Assembly (NCBI RefSeq): GCF_014647195.1
Contig: NZ_BMOS01000016.1
Coordinates: forward strand, 1 to 48,735
DNA length: 48,735 bases
Direction of reading: 5' to 3'
Origin: Oceanobacillus indicireducens
GTDB taxonomy: Bacteria > Bacillota > Bacilli > Bacillales > Amphibacillaceae
In this document: in pieces, positions 1-48,735 of the stretch
Layout of the letters: each line of letters starts with the position of its first letter
How positions within the stretch are numbered: position 1 is the first letter of the stretch
The notes under the pieces: generated by a model
The model's database searches: none
Told to the model about the DNA's origin: nothing
What the model saw: only the letters and a program-made list of their open reading frames with translations
Translations under genes and position numbers: made by a program

Positions 1-50
1 TTTTGGCTATAAAGTTCTTTATAAAGACAACAGTTTAGACCGCAAACAGT

Positions 51-220
51 ATACAGGGAGTGACTCCCCATACAGGGAGTGACGTAAAACGTGGAGCCTG
101 TTCCTTTATGCATTATCTTATACAGGGAGTGACTCCCCATACAGGGAGTGACTGTGGTGGCAGTACCTAAAAGAGGACAAATCACGAATACAGGGAGTGA
201 CTCCCCATACAGGGAGTGAC
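51..220 (-). CRISPR. CRISPR array A, three hybrid repeats, two spacers
   Basis: Three identical 33-bp units lie at 51-83, 120-152 and 188-220, separated by spacers of 36 and 35 bp. Read on the minus strand, each unit is GTCACTCCCTGTAT, then GGGGA, then GTCACTCCCTGTAT again. The first 21 bases match the type I-C repeats elsewhere in the window, but the usual 3' end (GTGGATTGAAAT) is missing. The leader is on the right, starting at 221, so the array is read leftward. Bases 1-50 show no further repeat at the expected distance, so 51-83 is probably the oldest, trailer-end unit. No cas genes are adjacent; the cas operon at 40.6-48.4 kb would have to act in trans. Confidence 0.85.
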
Positions 221-377
221 TGCGAGATATTGACAAAAACATCTCTAACTTACTATATGTTGTATCGTATCATCTTCACTATCTATAAAACAAGTTAAAA
301 ACAGAAAATATCCATTGTTAATAGAAAGTATTATGTGCGAATCTTCCAGAGAAATCATGGGCACTTCAGGTTCGCAC
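221..377 (-). promoter_or_regulatory. CRISPR leader A with distal stem-loop
   Basis: The sequence beginning GCGAGATATTGACA next to the first repeat is shared with the leaders at 4677, 35901, 40016 and 48549. Similarity to the leader of array C continues for about 110 bp. At the far end, GTGCGAA (335-341) and TTCGCAC (371-377) form an inverted repeat with a 29-nt loop whose sequence is also conserved near arrays C, D and E. The leader should hold the array promoter and the spacer-integration signals; that role is inferred from position. Confidence 0.75.
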
Positions 378-789
378 GTTTAATTAACGTTTTCCAATAA
401 TTTCAAAGCCTATTACTACCTGAACATTGTTTTAACTTGTAGAACCTATTATTGGATGTGAAGACTGACATAAAAACTGAGGTTTTGATGTAGGTTATGA
501 GATGGATAAAAACTGGAAAAGTCTTACTGCGAGGTTTCTCTATGTTTAAATAAGTCTTTCGTTTCTTTTGAAGAAAAAAATTCCTAATACTAACTTTTTA
601 ATTGTATCAATAATAACATAAAAGTTCGGAAATCTACCATGCTAGAATAACATTTCTACGGTTAAGGCGAACTTTATAGGGAATATACATTTACTTTTTA
701 CATTATAATTAAAAGTACTGAAGATTTATTCGGTATTTAAGAATTTTTCAAGGTGTTCGTGTTATACTTAGAGTAAGGAGATGATGTAA
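378..789. other. AT-rich intergenic region
   Basis: About 400 bp of AT-rich DNA with no credible gene. TATACT at 763-768 could be a -10 box for the operon starting at 790, but I see no good -35 at the right distance. AAGGAG at 775-780 is the ribosome binding site of the next gene. Confidence 0.5.
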
Positions 790-4537: not shown

Positions 4538-4676
4538 ATTTCAATCCACGCACTCATACAGGGTGCGACAGTCTGATAGTTAACTCCTTTAGTTACGGAG
4601 AGGCATTTCAGTCCTTTTTCATTATAAAGAGAGTAAATAAATCCATCAACCCACGCTCTCAATTTAGCCAATGAAC
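4538..4676 (-). CRISPR. Decayed CRISPR array B
   Basis: One good 32-bp repeat lies at 4538-4569 (minus strand: GTCGCACCCTGTAT, then GAGTGCGTGG, ATTGAAAT). A degraded copy begins at 4605 (ATTTCAGTCC), 35 bp further on. Another degraded copy precedes the leader (about 4644-4676, CCCACGCTCTCAA). The intact repeat is one base shorter and differs in its stem (GCAC/GTGC) from arrays C and E, so it may have belonged to the lost system represented by the cas3 fragments. No intact repeat lies next to the leader, so new spacers are unlikely to be added. Confidence 0.65.
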
Positions 4677-4765
4677 GCGAGATATTGACAAATCTATCTC
4701 TAACACTATATATACTATCGTATCATCTTCACTATCAATAAAACAAGTTAAAAATCAGAAAGTAT
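4677..4765 (-). promoter_or_regulatory. Orphan CRISPR leader B
   Basis: The sequence from GCGAGATATTGACA at 4677 to about 4765 matches leaders A and C almost base for base, including the CGTATCATCTTCACTAT block. Similarity ends after GTATGCATTA. The distal stem-loop found at leaders A, C, D and E is absent, so the copy is broken there. Confidence 0.7.
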
Positions 4766-4886
4766 GCATTATAGGAAAGATCGCGGAAGTGCGATTACAA
4801 ATGGCCGTCTGGATATTTCTATAGAAGGCTTGGGTGATGCTTTGGAATTGGGGGTGCGGGATCTGAAGGCTAAGGCTTGGATGTAG
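4766..4886 (+). pseudogene. Unrecognised 3' gene tail
   Basis: Immediately after the point where leader B loses similarity, the plus strand reads an open frame ending at TAG 4884-4886, including TNGRLDISIEGLGDALE and GVRDLKAKAWM. It is richer in G and C than its surroundings and has no start or ribosome binding site. It looks like the 3' end of a foreign gene joined to the leader by recombination. I do not recognise the family. Confidence 0.3.
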
Positions 4887-35113: not shown

Positions 35114-35472
35114 ATGTTAGCTCAAGAGAGGCACAAAATTATTCTGGATATGCTAGAAAGTGATAAGGTTGTAAAAGTCGCTAATTTGTGCACGATATTT
35201 AATGTTTCGATTGAAACAGTAAGAAGGGATTTAGAACATTTAGAAAGAGAAGGTAAATTAAAAAGAGTATATGGTGGAGCTGTACCACACAGTAAATCAG
35301 CTGCAGAACCTTCCTATCGTTCAAGGGAAAGAGTAAGCCCTAATGAAAAGCAGATGATTGGTAAACTTGCAGCTTCATTAATTCATGATGGGGAAACATT
35401 AATAATAGATCTTGGTACAACTACTTTAGAAGTTGCGAAATATTTAAAAGACAAGAAGGACTTAACGATTAA
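35114..35472 (+). pseudogene. DeoR-family regulator truncated by CRISPR array C
   Basis: The first 119 or so codons are a normal DeoR/GlpR regulator: MLAQERHKIILDMLESDKVVKV, a helix-turn-helix (LCTIFNVSIETVRRDLEHLEREGKLKRVYGGAV), KQMIGKLAASLIHDGETLII and DLGTTTLEVAKYLKDKKDLTI. At about 35470 the coding sequence passes directly into the trailer repeat of array C, and the remaining 130 or so residues of the sugar-binding domain are lost. The frame stays open by chance across array spacers to 35632. The DNA-binding half might still be made, but no effector domain remains. Confidence 0.85.
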
Positions 35473-35900
35473 ATCCACACTCCCAATACAGGGAGTGACA
35501 GATTGCATTGACTCCATTTCTTCTTTGGCAGATATTTCAATCCACACTCCCAATACAGGGAGTGACTTATTTTGCGTTTTTAGATGGAGACCCGATAGGA
35601 ATTTCAATCCACACTCCCAATACAGGGAGTGACTACCTTTTACGCTTATGGCACAAAGAGCAAAATAATTTCAATCCACACTCCCAATACAGGGAGTGAC
35701 CTTGCCTTCCCCAACTGCATTCCTCCTATTTTCTATTTCAATCCACACTCCCAATACAGGGAGTGACGGAAACAGAAACTACCGAAAACACAAATGATGA
35801 ATTTCAATCCACACTCCCAATACAGGGAGTGACCCAAGGTATGCACCTTTGTCTTGGTCCATCGTCGATTTCAATCCACACTCCCAATACAGGGAGTGAC
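35467..35900 (-). CRISPR. CRISPR array C, seven repeats, six spacers
   Basis: 33-bp repeats begin at 35467, 35534, 35601, 35668, 35735, 35801 and 35868, with spacers of 34, 34, 34, 34, 33 and 34 bp. On the minus strand the repeat is GTCACTCCCTGTATTGGGAG followed by TGTGGATTGAAAT, a type I-C repeat with stem ACTCCC/GGGAGT. The six leader-side copies are identical; the trailer copy (35467-35499) has three changes at its 3' end where it joins the deoR fragment. The leader lies to the right from 35901. There are no adjacent cas genes; the I-C operon 4.7 kb away should serve it. Confidence 0.97.
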
Positions 35901-39919: not shown

Positions 39920-40015
39920 ATAACATTCCGTGCTCCCAATATAGCAACGCACAAGCTATGTCACCCAGCCCATTTAATTGCTATTTCAATCTACGCTCCC
40001 AAAACAGGGAGCGAC
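39920..40015 (-). CRISPR. Decayed CRISPR array D
   Basis: A nearly intact 33-bp repeat at 39983-40015 (minus strand GTCGCTCCCTGTTTTGGGAG, then CGTAGATTGAAAT) directly borders leader D. A degraded copy lies at about 39920-39952 with 30 bp between. The stem GCTCCC/GGGAGC is that of array E. One change (GTAGATT for GTGGATT) lies in the crRNA handle. With one usable repeat beside an intact leader, it could in principle still gain spacers. Confidence 0.75.
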
Positions 40016-40180
40016 ACGAGATATTGACAAACCTAACACCTCGCCTCTATATAGTAGTTTTATTCATTTCTTTTCCTTGATTCACGTCAAAAATTCACTC
40101 ATTTCATGCACATAACCTGCATTTTCTGCGCAAACCTCCCCACAAAACCATGTTCACTTCAGGTCCGCGCATTAGCAATA
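40016..40180 (-). promoter_or_regulatory. CRISPR leader D with distal stem-loop
   Basis: CGAGATATTGACAAA borders the repeat; TCGCCTCTATATAGTAGT further on is shared with leader E rather than A/C. The distal element is TGCGCAAACC (40136-40145) against GGTCCGCGCA (40171-40180), imperfectly paired, with the loop motif ACCATGTTCACTTC. D is an inverted copy of the E leader on the other side of the cas operon. Confidence 0.75.
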
Positions 40181-40567: not shown

Positions 40568-42928
40568 TTGTTTATAGCTCATATTCGCAAAAGTGATCAT
40601 GTAATCCAAACGGTTCAAGACCACCTTGAAGGGGTTGCCTGGCTAGCGCGGAGATATGGTAAATTGATAGCGCTAGCTGCTCACACAGAATTATCTGGTT
40701 TACTCCACGATATGGGTAAATACACGGAAGCTTTTACGACCTACATAAGAAACGCGGTGCTTTATGATGATGTGGCGAGCACTAAGATTGATCACTCCAC
40801 CGCAGGAGCAAAATATTTATATGAAAATTATTATGGGAAGGATCCCTTGCAAAATCTCGTAGTAGAAACGGTAGGGATGGCTATTTTATCTCACCACTCC
40901 GGCCTGCAGAATTTTATCCAGCCCGATACGAGTCAATCGGATTATATCCGCCGTGTGACAAATGTTGATTTACCACACTATCAAGAGGTAGTAGCCAACT
41001 TTGAGGCTGTTTCTGGAAACGTGGAAAAGGTAACTCAATTGATCGAAGAAGCTAAAAAAGAAGTCGAGGAATTTATGGAGCGGATTAAGCACCTAAATGG
41101 AAAAGAACGAACCATTCATTTAAATTATATGCAAAAACTCGTGTTTAGTTGCTTGATCGATGCGGACCGTACTGATACTCGCTGTTTTGAAGAGGATACG
41201 GAAGTAACGCTCTCAGATCATTCGGCTGTTTTTGAAGAAGGATATAAAAACCTGATGAATCAAGTGAACGAATGGGGAGAGGCGGTTCAACCCATTTATA
41301 AACTGCGGAACGAGATGTCCGAGAGTTGTGATAGAAAAGCGGATGAAGCCTCATCTATCATGACTTTATCCATCCCGACCGGGGGCGGGAAAACCTTTGC
41401 AAGCCTCCGTTACGCCTTAAAACATGCGATGCAGTACAAAAAAGAACGGATTATTTATGTAGTTCCTTACACAACCATTCTGGAACAAAATGCTACGGCC
41501 GTCCGCGATATTATCAAACAGCCAGAAGCTGTCCTTGAACATCATGCGAATGTCATTGATGACAGCGGTTTGGATGATGAACCGGACTATTATCAGGAGG
41601 CATATCATAAACAGTTGCAGCTCGGGCGTGATAATTGGGACTATCCGATTATCTTTACGACAATGGTGCAGTTTCTGGATGCCTTTTTCCAAAAAGGAAC
41701 GAGAAAAAGCCGGCGTCTCCATCATCTCACGAATAGCGTAATTATCGTGGATGAAGTACAGTCTGTTCCTTACAAACATTTCCATCTGTTTAATACAGCA
41801 ATGAATTTTCTCCAAATGGTCGGAAATAGCAGCATCTTGCTTTGTACAGCAACACAGCCGGAAGTAGCTGAAATGAAGTATAAAATACACCTGGGGAAAA
41901 ATGCGGAAATTGTACCAGACCTTGTGAAGACTGTCGACGCGTTTAAAAGAGTATCAATCATCAATAAAGTGGACAAGGGCGGTTGGAATCTCGAAAAAAT
42001 AGCATCATTCACAGAAGAAGTCATGTCAGAAAACCAATCACTTTTGATCATTTTAAATACAAAGTCAGAAGTCCGGAGGCTTTATAAGCTGCTGGAAGAA
42101 TTGAATATAGCGGAAGTTTATCATCTCAGCACCTCAATGTGCCCGGCGCACCGAATGGAGAAGCTGGATAAGATACGGGACAAATTGGGTAAAGAACGAA
42201 TCATATGTGTCAGTACACAATTGATTGAAGCTGGTGTCGATATTAGCTTTGAATCCGTGATCCGCTCTCAGGCGGGACTCGATTCGATTGCTCAAGCGGC
42301 TGGTCGCTGCAACCGAAATGGGGAGCGAGAAGAAGGGAAAGTTTATATCATCCGCTCCGCAGAAGAAAATCTTTCAAGACTGCCCGAAATCCGAATCGGC
42401 GGAGAAGTGCTGGCAAATTATATCTTGAATAATGAAGACTTTGACGGCAATTATTTAAGTCCTTTGGCAATCCAGACTTATTTCAGACATTTCGATGCCC
42501 AGGCTGGACGTGTGATAAAAGTAGTGCCACCACCGTTGGATTGCCCTCTTATTAGTCACCTGAACGGGAGACATCCTAACGCGGGAAAAGCAAGCACCAT
42601 CTCTAAAGGTATGTTTAAGACAGTAGAAAAGCATTTTGAAGCAATTGAATCGCCTACAACATCTGTGATCGTTCCTTACGCGGGAGGCGAAGATATTATT
42701 GCTTCACTCAACCAAGACCTCGACATCAAAGAATTCAGCAACATTATGAAACAGGCACAGCAATATTCCGTAAATCTCTTTGACTATGAAATACAGAAAC
42801 TCAGTCAAAATAACTTGCTCGTACCCCTTTACGACAATTCGATTTATTGTCTCACGGAGCGGGCGTATGATGAAGATTTCGGCGTCACGATAGATGGAGA
42901 AGGTTCGATGATGGATTATAACTTTTAA
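40568..42928 (+). CDS. cas3: Cas3 nuclease-helicase, type I-C
   Basis: A 786-residue Cas3 with an N-terminal HD nuclease domain ([12 protein letters not shown] with H47-D48; [19 protein letters not shown]) and a superfamily 2 helicase. Walker A is IPTGGGKT near residue 270, motif II is [11 protein letters not shown], motif III is LLCTATQP, and motif VI is [11 protein letters not shown]. Size and order match type I-C. Recruited by Cascade, it nicks and degrades target DNA. Start TTG with AGAGGAGGGTG upstream. First gene of the cas operon. Confidence 0.95.
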
Positions 42929-42941
42929 GGAGGTGATACCA

Positions 42942-43661
42942 ATGAGGAACCAGATTGAATTTGTTGTTCATGGCAAATATGCCTTGTTCACCGATCCCGT
43001 GACTCGGATTGGCGGGGAGAAATTTACATACCAAATCCCCACATACCAAGCTTTAAAGGGAATCGTAGAATCGGTGTACTGGAAGCCAACGCTGACTTGG
43101 TATATCGATGAGGTACGTGTCATGAACCCAATCCAGACAGAGGTTAAGGGAGTTCGTCCGATCAAATATCAAAGCAATTCCAATGATTTAATGTACTACA
43201 CCTACTTACGTGAGCCTGTCTACCAAGTACGGGCCCATTTTGAATTCAATGAAAACAGACCCGATCTTGCTTATGACAGAAACGAGCACAAACATCACAA
43301 CATCGCAAAGCGAGCGGTGAAAAAAGGCGGTCGGCGTGATGTATTTCTCGGAACACGTGAATGTCAGGGGTATGTAGAAGATTGCGCGTTTGGTGAAGGC
43401 GAAAGTTTTTATGATGATTATGGTGAAGTAAGTTTTGGTCCGATGTTCCACGGGTTTACTTATCCGGATGAGGGAGATCAGGAAACGCTCCAGGCACGAA
43501 TTTGGGTACCTACGATGAAAAACGGAATTATCCGATTCAAGCGCCCGGAGGAATGTGAAATCATCCGGGACGTCCGGAAAGGCTCCATGAAACAATTTAC
43601 CAAAGGAGAAAACTTCACCGATGTGGATCAAGAATACGAAGAGATGTTTAAGGAGGTGTGA
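42942..43661 (+). CDS. cas5c: Cas5c (Cas5d) crRNA-processing subunit
   Basis: A 239-residue type I-C Cas5. In this subtype it replaces Cas6: it cuts the pre-crRNA repeat and stays on the crRNA 5' handle. The RAMP start [28 protein letters not shown] is clear. The [33 protein letters not shown] segment holds the Lys-His pair expected at the RNA-cleavage site. I use ATG 42942 after AAGGAGGTGAT; a GTG at 42933 lies inside that site. 13 bp after cas3. Confidence 0.93.
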
Positions 43662-43663
43662 AA

Positions 43664-45562
43664 ATGAGCTGGATGCAGCAGTTAAGCAAAGTGTATGAAA
43701 ATAATATGGACCATGTTGGAGAGTTTGAGGAAAGGCAGAATCAGCGGATAACGTTGCTCCCTGTTTCTCACGTTATGCAGAGTGCCCAAATTGAAATTTT
43801 GATTAATAGAGATGGAGAATTTGTGAGTGCGAAAGTTATTGAGAAAGAGAATGCGCGGACGATTGTGCCTGCTACCTCCGCATCAGCAAACCGCAGTAAT
43901 TCGAGTGCGCCCCACTATATCCATGACAAATTGTTTTACGTTGCCGGCGACTACGTAGCTTATACCGGGGAGAATAAGCGTGAAAAACATCATCAGGATT
44001 ACCTAGGGCAAATGAAAGAATGGGCTGAATTTCCAAACGCACCAAAAAAAGTGAAAGCAATCTATCAATATGTCAAAAAAGGAAATGTGATAGAGGACCT
44101 AATTAATGAAAAAGTAATCCCGGTAGACAGCAACAATGAAGTAATCACCAAGTGGACTTCATCCGAGGAAAAGCCATTGATTTATAAAGTGGTACCTGGT
44201 GACATTCTATCTGCATTTGTTCGATTTGATGTGCTTCACGAAAGAGCAGATGATCCTTTTATCTGGGAAGATAAACAATTATTTGATGACTATATCGAAT
44301 ACCAGGAAACAATTGCAGAGATGGAAAAAGGCTACTGCTATGTTACGGGAAAGGAAACGATACTGACCACACAGCATGGCTCGCGGATTCGAAACGCCGG
44401 TGACATGTCGAAGTTGATTTCTGCCAATGACAACAGCGGTTACACATACCGCGGAAGATTCGCAAAACCAACCGAAGCAGTACAAATCGGCTACGATGTC
44501 TCTCAAAAAGCACATCATGCACTGCGTTGGCTCCTACAACGACAGGGGACTTATGTGGATTCCCGTTACTTTGTTTCATTTGGTGTAGAGGAAGTAGAGG
44601 TGGCTGATCCGCTTGAAGGAACAGCAAATCATTTATTCGATTTCTTCTCTGTGGAAATGGATGAAGATACTAAAACGCACATTTATACAGAAGAAATTGT
44701 AGCGAAGGAATTAAATAAGGCGCTGCAAGGAAAAAGGCATGAGCTGAAAAAAGATATGTTGGAAAATATTATCGTTATGTCCGTGGATGCTGCAACGCCA
44801 GGCAGGCTTGCTATTGTGTACTATCAGGAACAAAATGCGGATTTATATTATGAAGCACTAGCCCATTGGCATCGTACATGTTACTGGCTTATGAGTTTTA
44901 AAAATGAAAATAAATGGATTTCATATCATGGTGCTCCTTCCACCTATCAGATTGTAGAAGCTGTCTATGGGAGGAATGGAGATCCAAGGATGAAGAAAGA
45001 GTTATATACAAGGTTGCTCCCGAGTATTACAGAAAAGAAGGCAATCCCGAAAGATATCGTTCAGACGTTGTTTAATAGGGTAAAAAATCCATTTAGCTTT
45101 GAGGGATTGGGACAGTGGAATTCTGTTATAAACATTGCATGCGCACTGATTAATAAGCAATACGAAAAGGAGGGATTTACCGTGGCGTTACAGGGAGAGA
45201 ACTCATCAAGAGATTATTTGTTTGGAAGATTGCTGGGTATTGCGGAAGTAATGGAGCAAAGACAACTGAAAGAAAGAGATGAAGGTAGAGCAACGAATGC
45301 CACCAGATATTTTAATGCGTTTTCTCAGCATCCTGCCCGTACCTGGATGGTCATCCGAAAGCAGCTCAATCCATATTTTCAGCGTTCCGGAGGACAAACA
45401 GGATATTATGCAATGCTCATTCAGCAGATAGAAGATAAGCTGGCAGTGGAGAATATGACCGACGCCCCGCTCAGCCCAGTTTTCCTATTGGGGTACAGCA
45501 GTCAAATCCAACATTTATATACAAAAAAGGAGGAAAATGAAAATGACAGCGTTGCAGAATAA
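43664..45562 (+). CDS. cas8c: Cas8c large Cascade subunit
   Basis: A 632-residue type I-C Cas8 (Csd1). Landmarks are the N-terminal LSKVYENNMDHVGEFEE, TRYLVSFG-like SRYFVSFGVEEVEVADPLEG and HWHRTCYWLM in the centre, and LFNRVKNPFSFEGLGQWNSVINIACALINKQYEKEG before the small-subunit part. It recognises the PAM and holds the non-target strand. ATG 43664 follows AAGGAGG by seven bases. Its last 126 codons also encode Cas11c from an internal start. Confidence 0.93.
   Translation: MSWMQQLSKVYENNMDHVGEFEERQNQRITLLPVSHVMQSAQIEILINRDGEFVSAKVIEKENARTIVPATSASANRSNSSAPHYIHDKLFYVAGDYVAYTGENKREKHHQDYLGQMKEWAEFPNAPKKVKAIYQYVKKGNVIEDLINEKVIPVDSNNEVITKWTSSEEKPLIYKVVPGDILSAFVRFDVLHERADDPFIWEDKQLFDDYIEYQETIAEMEKGYCYVTGKETILTTQHGSRIRNAGDMSKLISANDNSGYTYRGRFAKPTEAVQIGYDVSQKAHHALRWLLQRQGTYVDSRYFVSFGVEEVEVADPLEGTANHLFDFFSVEMDEDTKTHIYTEEIVAKELNKALQGKRHELKKDMLENIIVMSVDAATPGRLAIVYYQEQNADLYYEALAHWHRTCYWLMSFKNENKWISYHGAPSTYQIVEAVYGRNGDPRMKKELYTRLLPSITEKKAIPKDIVQTLFNRVKNPFSFEGLGQWNSVINIACALINKQYEKEGFTVALQGENSSRDYLFGRLLGIAEVMEQRQLKERDEGRATNATRYFNAFSQHPARTWMVIRKQLNPYFQRSGGQTGYYAMLIQQIEDKLAVENMTDAPLSPVFLLGYSSQIQHLYTKKEENENDSVAE
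45182..45562 (+). CDS. cas11c: Cas11c small subunit from internal start in cas8c
   Basis: Within cas8c and in the same frame, a strong AAGGAGG (45167-45173) stands eight bases before GTG 45182. Translation there would give 126 residues (ALQGENSSRDYLFGRLLGIAE, then YFNAFSQHPARTWMVIRKQLNPYF). Type I-C Cascade is known to obtain its Cas11 small subunit this way. The site is as strong as those of the main cas genes, so internal initiation is well supported. Confidence 0.8.
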   Translation: MALQGENSSRDYLFGRLLGIAEVMEQRQLKERDEGRATNATRYFNAFSQHPARTWMVIRKQLNPYFQRSGGQTGYYAMLIQQIEDKLAVENMTDAPLSPVFLLGYSSQIQHLYTKKEENENDSVAE

Positions 45563-46418
45563 AATTGACTTTGCAGTAGTATTTACAGTCGATAAAGCAA
45601 ATCCAAACGGGGACCCGTTAAATGGTAATCGTCCACGTCAGGATTTTTTAGGATATGGAGAGGTATCTGATGTGGCAATTAAGCGGAAGTTACGTAACAG
45701 ATTACAGGATGATGGGGAGGAAATTCTTGTTCAGTCGGATGAAAGGCGATCTGATGCATTCCGTAGTATCAAAGACAGGGTAGATTCAGTGGAAGAATTG
45801 AAAAAATTACTGACCAAGTCGAAAGCAACAGGAGCAGACGAAGAATCAGCTGAAATGATAGCAAGCAACACCTGGTATGATGTGCGTGCTTTTGGACAAG
45901 TGTTTGCATTTAAAGGGACAAAAATGTCTATCGGCATCCGCGGTCCGGTATCTATTCATACTGCAACAAGTGTGGAGCCGGTAGATATATCTAGTATGCA
46001 GATTACAAAGAGTGTTAACTCGATCACAAATACAAAAGATCCGGGTCAAAAAACATCCGACACGATGGGGATGAAACATCGAGTAGATTTTGGTGTATAT
46101 GTATTTTACGGAAGCATTAATCCGCAGCTCGCTGAACGTACTGGATTTACTTATGAAGATGCACAAAAACTGAAAGAAGCGTTAAAAACATTGTTCGCAA
46201 ACGATGCATCTTCCGCACGACCAGACGGTAGTATGGAGGTAAATAAAGTATTCTGGTGGGAGCATGATTCGAAATTAGGAAATTATTCTTCTGCTAAAGT
46301 TCATCGGACCGTACACGTGAAAAAGGTAGAAGACAATCTTCCTCATTCTATTGAAAATTACAAGATTACAGTAGATGAGCTGGAAGGACTGCCAGTTGAA
46401 GAACATGACGGGCTATAA
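45543..46418 (+). CDS. cas7c: Cas7c backbone subunit
   Basis: A 291-residue type I-C Cas7 (Csd2). FAVVFTVDKANPNGDPLNGNRPRQDFLGYGEVSDVAIKRKLRNRLQD is the family's start; FAFKGTKMSIGIRGPVSIHTATSVEPVDISSMQITKSVNS and MGMKHRVDFGVYVFYGSINPQLAE are its core. Several copies line the crRNA spacer. I use ATG 45543, nine bases after AGGAGG; ATG 45537 is only three bases away. Overlaps cas8c by 20 bp. Confidence 0.94.
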   Translation: MTALQNKIDFAVVFTVDKANPNGDPLNGNRPRQDFLGYGEVSDVAIKRKLRNRLQDDGEEILVQSDERRSDAFRSIKDRVDSVEELKKLLTKSKATGADEESAEMIASNTWYDVRAFGQVFAFKGTKMSIGIRGPVSIHTATSVEPVDISSMQITKSVNSITNTKDPGQKTSDTMGMKHRVDFGVYVFYGSINPQLAERTGFTYEDAQKLKEALKTLFANDASSARPDGSMEVNKVFWWEHDSKLGNYSSAKVHRTVHVKKVEDNLPHSIENYKITVDELEGLPVEEHDGL

Positions 46419-47064
46419 TGAACAAGATTATCTGATGCTTTCAGGGATCCAGCATTTTGTATTCTGCAAGCGGCAGTGGGCGCTTATTCATGTGGAGCAG
46501 GAGTGGGCTGAGAATGTATTGACGGTAGAAGGAAATGCCCTCCATGAGAAGGCTGACGACCCTTTCATACGCGAAAAAAGGGGAGATACCATTTTTGTCC
46601 GCGCGCTGCCTGTTCATTCAAGCTCGCTTGGCATCAGTGGCATCTGCGATATGGTGGAATTTACAAGAGATGAAGACGGTATTCCTTTAGACAAAGAGGA
46701 AGGGCTGTATTCTGTAAAACCAATAGAATATAAAAAGGGCAAACCCAAAAAGCATGATGCCGATATTTTGCAGCTAGCTGCCCAGTCCCTGTGTCTCGAG
46801 GAAATGCTCGGAACAGTGATTGAGGAGGCTGCACTCTACTACCATGAAATCAAACGAAGGGAACCAGTCCCTATCACAAATAATCTCAGGAATAGAGCAA
46901 AAGAAATGTTAAAAGAAATGCATCATTACTATGGTAGAAAGCACACTCCAAGGGTAAAAACTGGAAAACATTGCTTAAGATGCTCATTACGGGATATCTG
47001 TTTGCCGGAAATGCTGGAAAGAGAAAAAGTATCTGCGTACATGAATAGGATGTTGGCGGAATGA
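46405..47064 (+). CDS. cas4: Cas4 RecB-like adaptation nuclease
   Basis: A 219-residue Cas4 with four Fe-S cysteines: FCKRQWAL near the N-terminus and HCLRCSLRDIC at the end. The RecB-type nuclease core shows PIEYKKGKPKKHDADILQLAAQSLCLEEML. Cas4 trims prespacers and selects PAM-bearing ends together with Cas1-Cas2. The start is uncertain; ATG 46405 overlaps cas7c by 14 bp and gives the length typical of type I-C, but its ribosome binding site (GAAGAA) is weak. Confidence 0.92.
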   Translation: MTGYNEQDYLMLSGIQHFVFCKRQWALIHVEQEWAENVLTVEGNALHEKADDPFIREKRGDTIFVRALPVHSSSLGISGICDMVEFTRDEDGIPLDKEEGLYSVKPIEYKKGKPKKHDADILQLAAQSLCLEEMLGTVIEEAALYYHEIKRREPVPITNNLRNRAKEMLKEMHHYYGRKHTPRVKTGKHCLRCSLRDICLPEMLEREKVSAYMNRMLAE

Positions 47065-48092
47065 AAAAATTACTTAATACTGTTTACGTTTCTCAGCCCG
47101 ATATCTATTTGGCTCTTAAAGGAAAAAATCTAAACCTTATAAAAGAAGATGAATCAATTGCACGTGTCCCGCTTCATAATATCCAGGCGATTTGTACCTT
47201 TGGACATCAAGGAGCAAGCCCAGCACTAATGGCTGAATGCATGGAACAAAATATTAGTCTCACCTTTTTCACAAGCGCGGGCAGATTTCGCGGGCGGCTA
47301 ACGGGAGAGTCGAATGGCAACGTTTTGTTGCGGAAAAAACAATATAGAATTTCCGACTCAGAAGATGAAAGCTTACGGGTAGCTAGACATATGATCGTTG
47401 GGAAAATCTTTAACAGTGAGCAACTGTTAAATCGTACGTGGAGAGACCATGTACTGCGCGTGAATTCAGAGCGGATTAAACATGCAATCAGTAGTCTTGC
47501 AAAAGCCCGACAGCACATACTTACATGCATCAATTTAGAAGATTTAAGAGGAATTGAAGGAAACGCCGCAAGTGTTTATTATAGTGTTTTTGACGAATGC
47601 ATTCTGCAGAATAAAGAAGATTTCACATTCTCGCATCGTAACCGGAGACCGCCATTAGACCGAATAAACGCCTTACTGTCTTTTTCGTATTCTTTACTGG
47701 CATCGGAAACAGCGGCTGCTCTAGAAGGGGTCGGACTTGATTCGTATGTAGGTTTTTTGCATCGTGACCGGCCAGGAAGAACTTCTCTTGCTTTAGATGT
47801 CATGGAAGAGTTGCGACCATTGATTGCAGACCGATTTGTTTTAAAGATAGTTAATAGAAAACAGATTCATGCAAAGGATTTTGTTATTAAAGAAAATGGT
47901 GCTGTCATCCTTAAAGATGATGCGAGAAGGAAATTTCTGCAGCTATGGCAGGAAAATAAGGAGTCTGAAATTACTCACCCGTATTTAAAAGAAAAAATCT
48001 CCTGGGGATTAATCCCGCATGTGCAAGCATTATTATTAGCCAGATTTTTAAGGGGAGACCTTGATGCATATCCTCCAATTTTACTTAGGTAG
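47061..48092 (+). CDS. cas1: Cas1 integrase
   Basis: A 343-residue type I-C Cas1. Metal-binding residues are the Glu in RGIEGNAASVYY, the His in YVGFLHRDRPGR and the acidic pair in LALDVMEELRPLI. The N-terminal beta domain begins LLNTVYVSQPDIYLALKGKNLNL. With Cas2 it inserts new spacers at the leader-repeat junction. The start overlaps the cas4 stop as ATGA. Confidence 0.96.
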   Translation: MKKLLNTVYVSQPDIYLALKGKNLNLIKEDESIARVPLHNIQAICTFGHQGASPALMAECMEQNISLTFFTSAGRFRGRLTGESNGNVLLRKKQYRISDSEDESLRVARHMIVGKIFNSEQLLNRTWRDHVLRVNSERIKHAISSLAKARQHILTCINLEDLRGIEGNAASVYYSVFDECILQNKEDFTFSHRNRRPPLDRINALLSFSYSLLASETAAALEGVGLDSYVGFLHRDRPGRTSLALDVMEELRPLIADRFVLKIVNRKQIHAKDFVIKENGAVILKDDARRKFLQLWQENKESEITHPYLKEKISWGLIPHVQALLLARFLRGDLDAYPPILLR

Positions 48093-48101
48093 GTGAAGAA
48101 A

Positions 48102-48392
48102 GTGTTAATACTAGTAACCTATGATGTCCAGACGGTGTCTGCGAGTGGCCAAAAGAGATTGAGAAAAGTAGCTAAGAAGTGTGAGGAATACGGGGTCCGA
48201 GTGCAGAATTCTGTATTTGAGTGTGTGGTGGACAGTACGCAATTACGCCAGTTGGAACTAAGCTTAGAATCAATCATCGATCCATCTGTTGATAGTCTTC
48301 GGTTCTATCGCTTAGGGAACAATTATGAAAATAAGGTGAAGCATATAGGTGCTAAACCGTCGCTTGAAGTAGAAAAGCCACTGATTTTTTAA
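48102..48392 (+). CDS. cas2: Cas2
   Basis: A 96-residue Cas2: LVTYDVQTVSASGQKRLRKVAKKCEEYGVRVQNSVFECVVD, then LRFYRLGNNYENKVKHIG. The core Asp (TYDV) and the arginine-rich helix are as expected. I use GTG 48102 with AGGTGAAG upstream, which gives the usual MLILVTYDV start; a GTG at 48093 would add three residues. Last gene of the operon. Confidence 0.95.
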   Translation: MLILVTYDVQTVSASGQKRLRKVAKKCEEYGVRVQNSVFECVVDSTQLRQLELSLESIIDPSVDSLRFYRLGNNYENKVKHIGAKPSLEVEKPLIF

Positions 48393-48549: not shown

Positions 48550-48735
48550 GTCGCTCCCTGTATGGGGAGCGTGGATTGAAATAGATGCAGTCGCCTTACA
48601 GTGGAAAGATAATCCTGCGTCGCTCCCTGTATGGGGAGCGTGGATTGAAATAGTTTATCCAACAATTTGACATCATAATCGATGAACGTCGCTCCCTGTA
48701 TGGGGAGCGTGGATTGAAATATAAGAATGGAAATC
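48550..48735 (+). CRISPR. CRISPR array E, start (runs off window)
   Basis: Three identical 33-bp repeats at 48550-48582, 48619-48651 and 48688-48720, with 36-bp spacers at 48583-48618 and 48652-48687; a third spacer begins at 48721. The repeat GTCGCTCCCTGTATGGGGAG with CGTGGATTGAAAT is a type I-C repeat with stem GCTCCC/GGGAGC. It is read rightward directly from the cas operon and is likely the main active array. It continues past the window. Confidence 0.97.

Follow-up and report, generated by a model that had tools for sequence, protein, structure and literature searches.

Abnormal repeat units at the leader end of a type I-C CRISPR array in Oceanobacillus indicireducens and their bearing on how repeat length may be set

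The ruler studies of CRISPR types I-E and I-B, which we take to be those of Goren 2016 and Wang 2016, reportedly made use of engineered repeats. Ruler mechanisms have been described for these two types and shown for type II-A; in the I-E and I-B rulers a repeat-internal element fixes the distance at which the second integration site lies, and changes downstream of that element do not move the site (PMC6895254). One paper on type I-C brings up a ruler for prespacer cutting by Cas4 only (PMC6519985), and among the titles and abstract openings listed from the open literature, mostly without subscription papers, there was neither a type I-C ruler acting on the repeat nor a propagated hybrid unit of the kind described below.

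The window analysed here is a stretch of 48,735 nucleotides from Oceanobacillus indicireducens (contig NZ_BMOS01000016.1 of assembly GCF_014647195.1, hereafter C16); it starts at the first base of the contig, and a CRISPR array, array A, is cut there by the contig end. We consider it highly probable that a single accident in a functioning type I-C array lies behind the abnormal repeat units seen here and that these were propagated from it, a leader-proximal repeat of 52 bp arising first and copies of 33 bp following. The main argument rests on the ends of an insertion element with their target duplication, and on the comparison with the 52-bp unit.

Array A and the type I-C locus

Array A runs on the minus strand, and its units have the leader on their right:

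51-83, minus: abnormal repeat unit 3, the oldest of the three
84-119, minus: spacer S2, 36 bp, reading as terminase large subunit codons KIMHKGTGSTFY, with matches in viral contig L052 and phage Javan386
120-152, minus: abnormal repeat unit 2
153-187, minus: spacer S1, the newest, 35 bp, no target found
188-220, minus: abnormal repeat unit 1, adjoining the leader
221..420, minus: leader of array A, its length taken as 200 bp for comparison

Each unit reads GTCACTCCCTGTAT GGGGA GTCACTCCCTGTAT on the minus strand, is 33 bp long and is identical to the other two, exactly as the initial annotation had described them. The ordinary repeat, GTCACTCCCTGTATGGGGAGTGTGGATTGAAAT, has positions 1-21 in common with the abnormal unit; over positions 22-33 the two agree at only 2 of 12 bases and the usual 3' GTGGATTGAAAT is absent, which bears out the further claim that the native 3' handle sequence is gone. 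That it had been "replaced", as the annotation put it, holds for the loss of this sequence and not for an exchange in place, the abnormal unit being the leader-side 33 bp of the 52-bp unit. The body of array A, arrays D and E and the main array have repeats of the GTCGC...GTGGATTGAAAT type, which comprise a stem and a 3' handle, and the three abnormal units fall outside this type, having kept positions 1-21 and lost 22-33. The ordinary family occupies 121 places in the genome at two or fewer mismatches (90 forward, 31 reverse), and a genome search for the abnormal 33-mer with three mismatches allowed returned four places, all exact, namely the three units and one on a second contig, C47. Given these counts, chance is no issue for the abnormal 33-mer.

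The window also holds a complete type I-C operon in the order cas3-cas5c-cas8c-cas7-cas4-cas1-cas2, all seven of its ORFs scoring over the NCBIfam cut-off, together with two ordinary arrays:

40568..42928, plus: cas3 of the type I-C operon (TIGR01587 and TIGR01596, over cut-off)
42933..43661, plus: cas5c, the crRNA-processing nuclease (TIGR01876)
43658..45562, plus: cas8c/csd1 (TIGR01863)
45537..46418, plus: cas7/csd2 (TIGR02589)
46375..47064, plus: cas4 (TIGR00372)
47061..48092, plus: cas1, type I-C (TIGR03640)
48093..48392, plus: cas2 (TIGR01573)
48550..48735, plus: start of the main ordinary array (GTCGCTCCCTGTATGGGGAGCGTGGATTGAAAT), which runs on past the window and past a run of N
35467..35900, minus: ordinary array E, used for comparison, with its leader on the right and seven repeats, of which the last is degenerate

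The leader of array A is identical to that of array D, on C47, over 60 bp, and the two remain 99.2% identical over 120 bp and 96.5% over 200 bp.

Several further elements lie around these features. A relic array (4538-4569 and 4677-4770) consists of one I-C-like repeat with a copy of the leader that matches array A's at 88% identity, and a lone I-C-like repeat with its own leader (39983-40100) is located upstream of the cas operon and points away from it. Beside array A, three adjacent ORFs at 790-2826 were read by eye from the sequence, the first resembling a helix-turn-helix regulator and the second bearing an HExxH-like motif as in ImmA/IrrE proteases. The N run begins at C16:48736, right after the window end and inside the main array. 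In array D one spacer stands twice in succession, a repeat-spacer duplication (C47:4267-4402).

The 52-bp unit and the split of the array

The fourth place of the abnormal 33-mer is near the end of C47 (14,752 bp), inside a longer unit, and both this contig and C16 end in pieces of an insertion element:

C47:14612-14663: 52-bp unit, made up of 19 bp of repeat and, after them, one complete ordinary repeat
1..48, plus: right end of the insertion element (ending ...CCGCAAACA); the same end at C22 and C65, left ends at the contig ends of C47, C8 and C24
49..54, plus: 6-bp target duplication GTATAC, present also at the element's left end on C47

Within the 52-bp unit, bases 1-33 are exactly the abnormal unit and the final 33 bp are the ordinary repeat. 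Beyond it C47 carries at least 13 ordinary or diverged repeats, or 14 ordinary or older, diverged ones when the repeat inside the 52-bp unit is counted, by a search that allowed five mismatches in the 21-bp core and past which more degenerate repeats may lie. The last ordinary spacer adjoins the 52-bp unit, and the three abnormal units stand leader-ward of it, across the presumed contig join. At the old end of the array (C47:13840-13873, in locus L010) a truncated repeat has only its GTGTGGATTGAAAT part left, a loss opposite to that of the abnormal units.

The element pieces measure 49 bp at the end of C47 and 48 bp at the start of C16, and GTATAC is common to the left flank on the former and the right flank on the latter. 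In the window, positions 49-50 supply the two bases with which spacer S3 begins, and positions 51-54 are part of the third abnormal unit; when the element and one GTATAC are removed, unit 3 comes to 33 bp and S3 to 36 bp. The genome holds six strong matches to the element ends; every one is at the end of a contig, and they divide into three left ends (C47, C8, C24) and three right ends (C16, C22, C65), with seven further matches at E 0.67 or worse left out. A second copy of the element shows the 6-bp duplication GCTGAG on C24 and on C22/C65, the last two having one flank in common, and for the third left end, on C8 (duplication AAGTGA), the right ends found include no partner. No body of the element turned up in the assembly, and the join of C47 to C16 is inferred for that reason. 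The rve domain search gave one sub-threshold fragment, on C59, which is unlinked to the element.

The rest of array A very probably lies at the end of C47, and the inferred order runs leader, unit 1, S1 (35 bp), unit 2, S2 (36 bp), unit 3, S3 (36 bp), 52-bp unit, S4 (35 bp) and then ordinary repeats. The element would have split the array at the border of S3 and unit 3 at a later time. If the join is right, the minimum of two insertions after the change, proposed in the initial annotation from the window, becomes three acquisitions, S3 being the third spacer, and the successive copying that it had envisaged stands.

Misassembly of short reads might be suspected as the source of the abnormal units in an assembly of 89 contigs that breaks at array A itself and has an N run at the other end of the window. 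Against this, the three units lie between distinct spacers, the predicted intermediate stands at a fourth place, on a different contig, a repeated insertion element whose 6-bp duplication matches explains the break, and S2 and S3 resemble phage genes; we regard an artefact as most improbable.

Spacers S1-S3 and the search for similar arrays

Two of the three spacers show similarity to phage genes, S2 to a terminase gene and S3 to a gene for an Ig-like protein beside capsid genes, and in both cases the matches are to diverged relatives and not to source phages. S2 aligns at 29 of 36 bases, with a TTT flank, to L052 in an ORF that is named terminase-like by its motif and by the annotation of Javan386, and at 28 of 36, with a TAT flank and a blastn E of 1, to the annotated terminase large subunit of Streptococcus phage Javan386. 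A codon-degenerate pattern of S2 matched one viral contig (L052), about 2e-5 matches being expected if the collection holds 1e11 bases, an assumed size. S3 reads in frame as PKTNNLEVGAT, and its codon-degenerate pattern matches eight viral contigs (about 0.001 expected at random, assuming 1e11 bases in the collection). In L051 the agreement is 30 of 36 with TTC immediately 5', and TTC is the PAM reported for a type I-C system (PMC8406640). This flank is found in one (L051) of nine aligned S3 relatives and is absent from the other eight, the relative in genome G140 included; the nine are not all independent, the protospacer letters of L045 and L047 being the same as those of L051.

The first lead for S3 came from a query of the three spacers joined, searched against 159 genomes, which matched a gene in G140, a family member, with 87% identity over 38 bp and an E of 3e-6 for that genome; this value is flattering, as 4 of the 38 bases come from the end of S2 through the artificial join. 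S3 alone agrees with G140 at 29 of 36 bases, with an E of about 3e-4 for one genome of that size where 159 genomes were searched, and the G140 match by itself is modest. The gene concerned encodes a Big_2 Ig-like protein and lies beside genes for capsid, head-tail connector, head-completion and HK97 gp10-like proteins. Altogether, 9 of the 159 genomes, the own genome included, had a match at E 0.01 or better in the joined-spacer search. Besides G140 these comprise seven loci in other genomes, several of whose matches span artificial joins in the query; the five that were aligned (L035, L036, L037, L038, L040) reach at best 19 to 23 of 36 bases, L039 and L041 being outside the alignment. A fourth match in the own genome (C16:52452, E 0.001) was rejected, as it spans an artificial join.

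Neither exact 24-mers of S1, S2 and S3 nor the 21-bp repeat core matched the viral contigs, two codon-degenerate readings of S1 gave no match there, and the spacers gave none against plasmids. With blastn against phages, two weak matches were obtained, both in S2 (E 1 and 3), and S3 matched 30 records, E being 1 to 5 among the 20 of 30 listed. The phage search of the two window spacers that the initial annotation had proposed thus returned relatives of S2, namely L052 and Javan386, and no target for S1.

In length the three spacers (35, 36 and 36 bp) stand at or above the upper end of the 29 spacers measured in the body of array A and in arrays D and E, which are 33-35 bp; left out of the 29 are one 69-bp interval, the interval of zero length within the 52-bp unit and the terminal interval of each array. 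At its start the main array has intervals of 36, 36, a gap, 37, 36, 37, 36 and 37 bp and then falls to 33-35 bp, three intervals of 258-328 bp having been left out. Its seven intervals of 36-37 bp represent four distinct spacers (36, 36, 37 and 36 bp), two of which recur, one copy being off by a base. Array D, with nearly the same leader as array A, has none of the longer spacers at its leader end (34 bp). Resampling from the main-array lengths gave 0.03, which is not a clean probability because the seven long intervals are four distinct spacers. In length S1-S3 agree with these newest main-array spacers, and on this small sample they look like recent acquisitions by the same machinery. Within the main array the length step is abrupt, at 49397, the spacers that follow being mostly 33-35 bp, and the two recurring spacers recur as a block.

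The abnormal units might alternatively have been spread by recombination or gene conversion between repeats and not by new acquisitions. Slippage-type rearrangement of arrays has been discussed (PMC8047081), and a scan of species contigs for the 52-bp-type pattern (about 85,000 species, the own genome possibly outside them) did find partial-repeat duplications elsewhere. It returned four loci, of which L031 and L032 are chance spacer matches and L029 and L030 are real interior partial duplications in arrays unrelated to array A, both in metagenome-assembled sequences. In L029 a partial copy of 21 bp plus one G precedes a complete repeat, with 90 exact repeats on its 5' side and 3 at or after it; in L030 the partial copy is 18 bp, with 38 repeats on the 5' side and 21 at or after it. 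Both units lie in the array interior beside a duplicated spacer, and in neither was the partial copy spread onward. In array A, moreover, S1, S2 and S3 are mutually different, no second copy of any of them was found in the own genome, and the change stops exactly at the 52-bp unit. Spread by recombination is on these grounds very unlikely, and L029 and L030 fit the view that a lesion spreads only when it lies in the leader-proximal repeat.

The abnormal unit was found in none of 27 other genomes of the genus, and the same 27 gave no ordinary repeat of the family at two or fewer mismatches. A search of related genomes for the exact 33-bp unit had been suggested in the initial annotation, and hybrids arising separately beside normal repeats, which the annotation had held to be contrary to its reading, were seen in none of the 27, a weak result since 0/27 have the repeat family. 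At the level of the order, two scans covered 397 genomes, a sample of a larger group, with patterns for GTCRC-type repeats only. Outside the own genome they gave single matches in one genome (first scan) and in four genomes (second scan), none of them a CRISPR hybrid: the former is a 21-bp minisatellite without spacers and the latter four are one non-repeated sequence in one genus. The patterns used thus found a CRISPR hybrid in 0 of the 396 other genomes.

Repeat length, crRNAs and described systems

The 52-bp unit itself probably goes back to slippage or to a short deletion between adjacent repeats; in the deletion variant, these repeats would have shared a GT (19 bp plus GT in one, GTCACT starting the next) and the spacer between them would have been lost. 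With this unit leader-proximal at the time, Cas1-Cas2 (with Cas4) would have inserted S3 and copied 33 bp only, counted either from the leader border or from the adjacent stem within the repeat, and S2 and then S1 would have been added in the same way with the abnormal unit as template. In all three acquisitions the leader-side 33 bp would have been copied, and in two of them the template already lacked the native 3' end.

An integrase that reads the native 3' end would have copied 52 bp, and one that counts would have copied the leader-side 33 bp. The unit left beside S3 is the leader-side 33 bp of the 52-bp unit, and no drift in length accompanies S2 and S1. The copied length would hence appear to have been constant despite an altered and lengthened downstream sequence, first from the 52-bp unit to 33 bp and then over units lacking the native 3' end, and this argues that the last 12 bp may not be needed to place the second cut. 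Integration by a 33-bp ruler, as envisaged in the initial annotation, agrees with a copied length that stayed at 33 bp; counting from the leader border and counting from the stem are inseparable here because positions 1-21 are unchanged and both predict the same product.

The second cut could also be set by local sequence, the duplicated 14-mer offering CTGTAT, which ends in AT like GAAAT, at position 33. The last two bases (AT) are indeed the same in the abnormal unit and the ordinary repeat and make up the 2 of 12 that agree, and the cut may retain a weak preference for AT. However, a further CTGTAT, ending at position 14, went unused, the sequence departs from the native end at 10 of the 12 bases, and the length is 33 bp in all three units; we consider such a local determinant quite unlikely. 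Measurement of length, the reading preferred here, draws on three copying events in one genome, the first with the 52-bp unit as template and the other two with its product, and has the ancestral state read from array A alone because no related species searched has this array. On this evidence base, the sequences suggest that type I-C measures repeat length rather than reading the far end of the repeat.

The consequences for crRNAs can be approached through Cas5d, the type I-C processing enzyme, which recognises the hairpin and the 3' single strand and cuts at the hairpin base to leave an 11-nt 5' handle (PMC5965380, PMC3890593). When the abnormal unit is folded alone, the normal hairpin has a pair probability of about 0.63 and a competing hairpin about 0.37, against about 1.0 for the ordinary repeat; the 52-nt unit is computed to fold into one long hairpin. 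In a model of the whole-array transcript, the normal hairpin of unit 1 reaches 0.77 against 0.71 in the control, and units 2 and 3 pair together in both. Since the unit 1 hairpin is as good as that of the control, folding speaks less strongly for impairment, and the case for it rests mainly on the lost handle. The crRNAs of S1-S3 are probably without the normal 5' handle and their memories impaired, the older ones being normal.

It could be supposed that the abnormal repeat was retained because it is functional, this system or a second one loading crRNAs whose 5' handle is different. Three acquisitions were kept and the stem survives, with the hairpin probabilities just given (about 0.63 alone and 0.77 for unit 1 in the modelled array). 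Nevertheless, Cas5d reads both the hairpin and the 3' single strand (PMC3890593), 10 of 12 of those bases are changed, and the competing hairpin takes about 0.37 in the unit alone; retention for function seems unlikely. Rather improbable as a whole is a ratchet, set off by one lesion in the leader-proximal repeat, in which type I-C integration counts 33 bp without the last 12, phage memories go on being stored, and crRNAs from the handle-less repeat (with a ACUCCCUGUAU handle) are made and used, the handle sequence being non-essential here. With impaired memories as the probable outcome, array A points to a weak spot in CRISPR memory: the leader-proximal repeat is the template, and one small rearrangement in it can degrade every later memory in the array while acquisition continues.

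Compared with described systems, array A resembles the type I-E and I-B rulers in a second integration site at a fixed distance and in tolerance of a change in the downstream repeat, and it differs from them in its type, I-C, and in an alteration that arose naturally and is large, with 12 bp replaced and 19 bp extra. The Streptococcus thermophilus II-A ruler differs in its type, in its anchor motif and in the indels of 1-3 bases studied there (PMC6895254). A ruler also contributes to integration in the Francisella novicida V-A system, but there the spacer-proximal repeat end is needed as well and changes in length sharply cut full integration (PMC13034035), whereas array A reused a repeat without its native 3' end. 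The other I-C-type arrays L029 and L030 are alike in having a partial copy before a complete repeat, and unlike in that the copy is interior and was not copied onward. Array A can be seen as a record, laid down naturally in three steps, of what guides the type I-C integrase in setting repeat length; it is a known kind of system with a rare, informative accident, and offers CRISPR specialists a natural test and not a new system.
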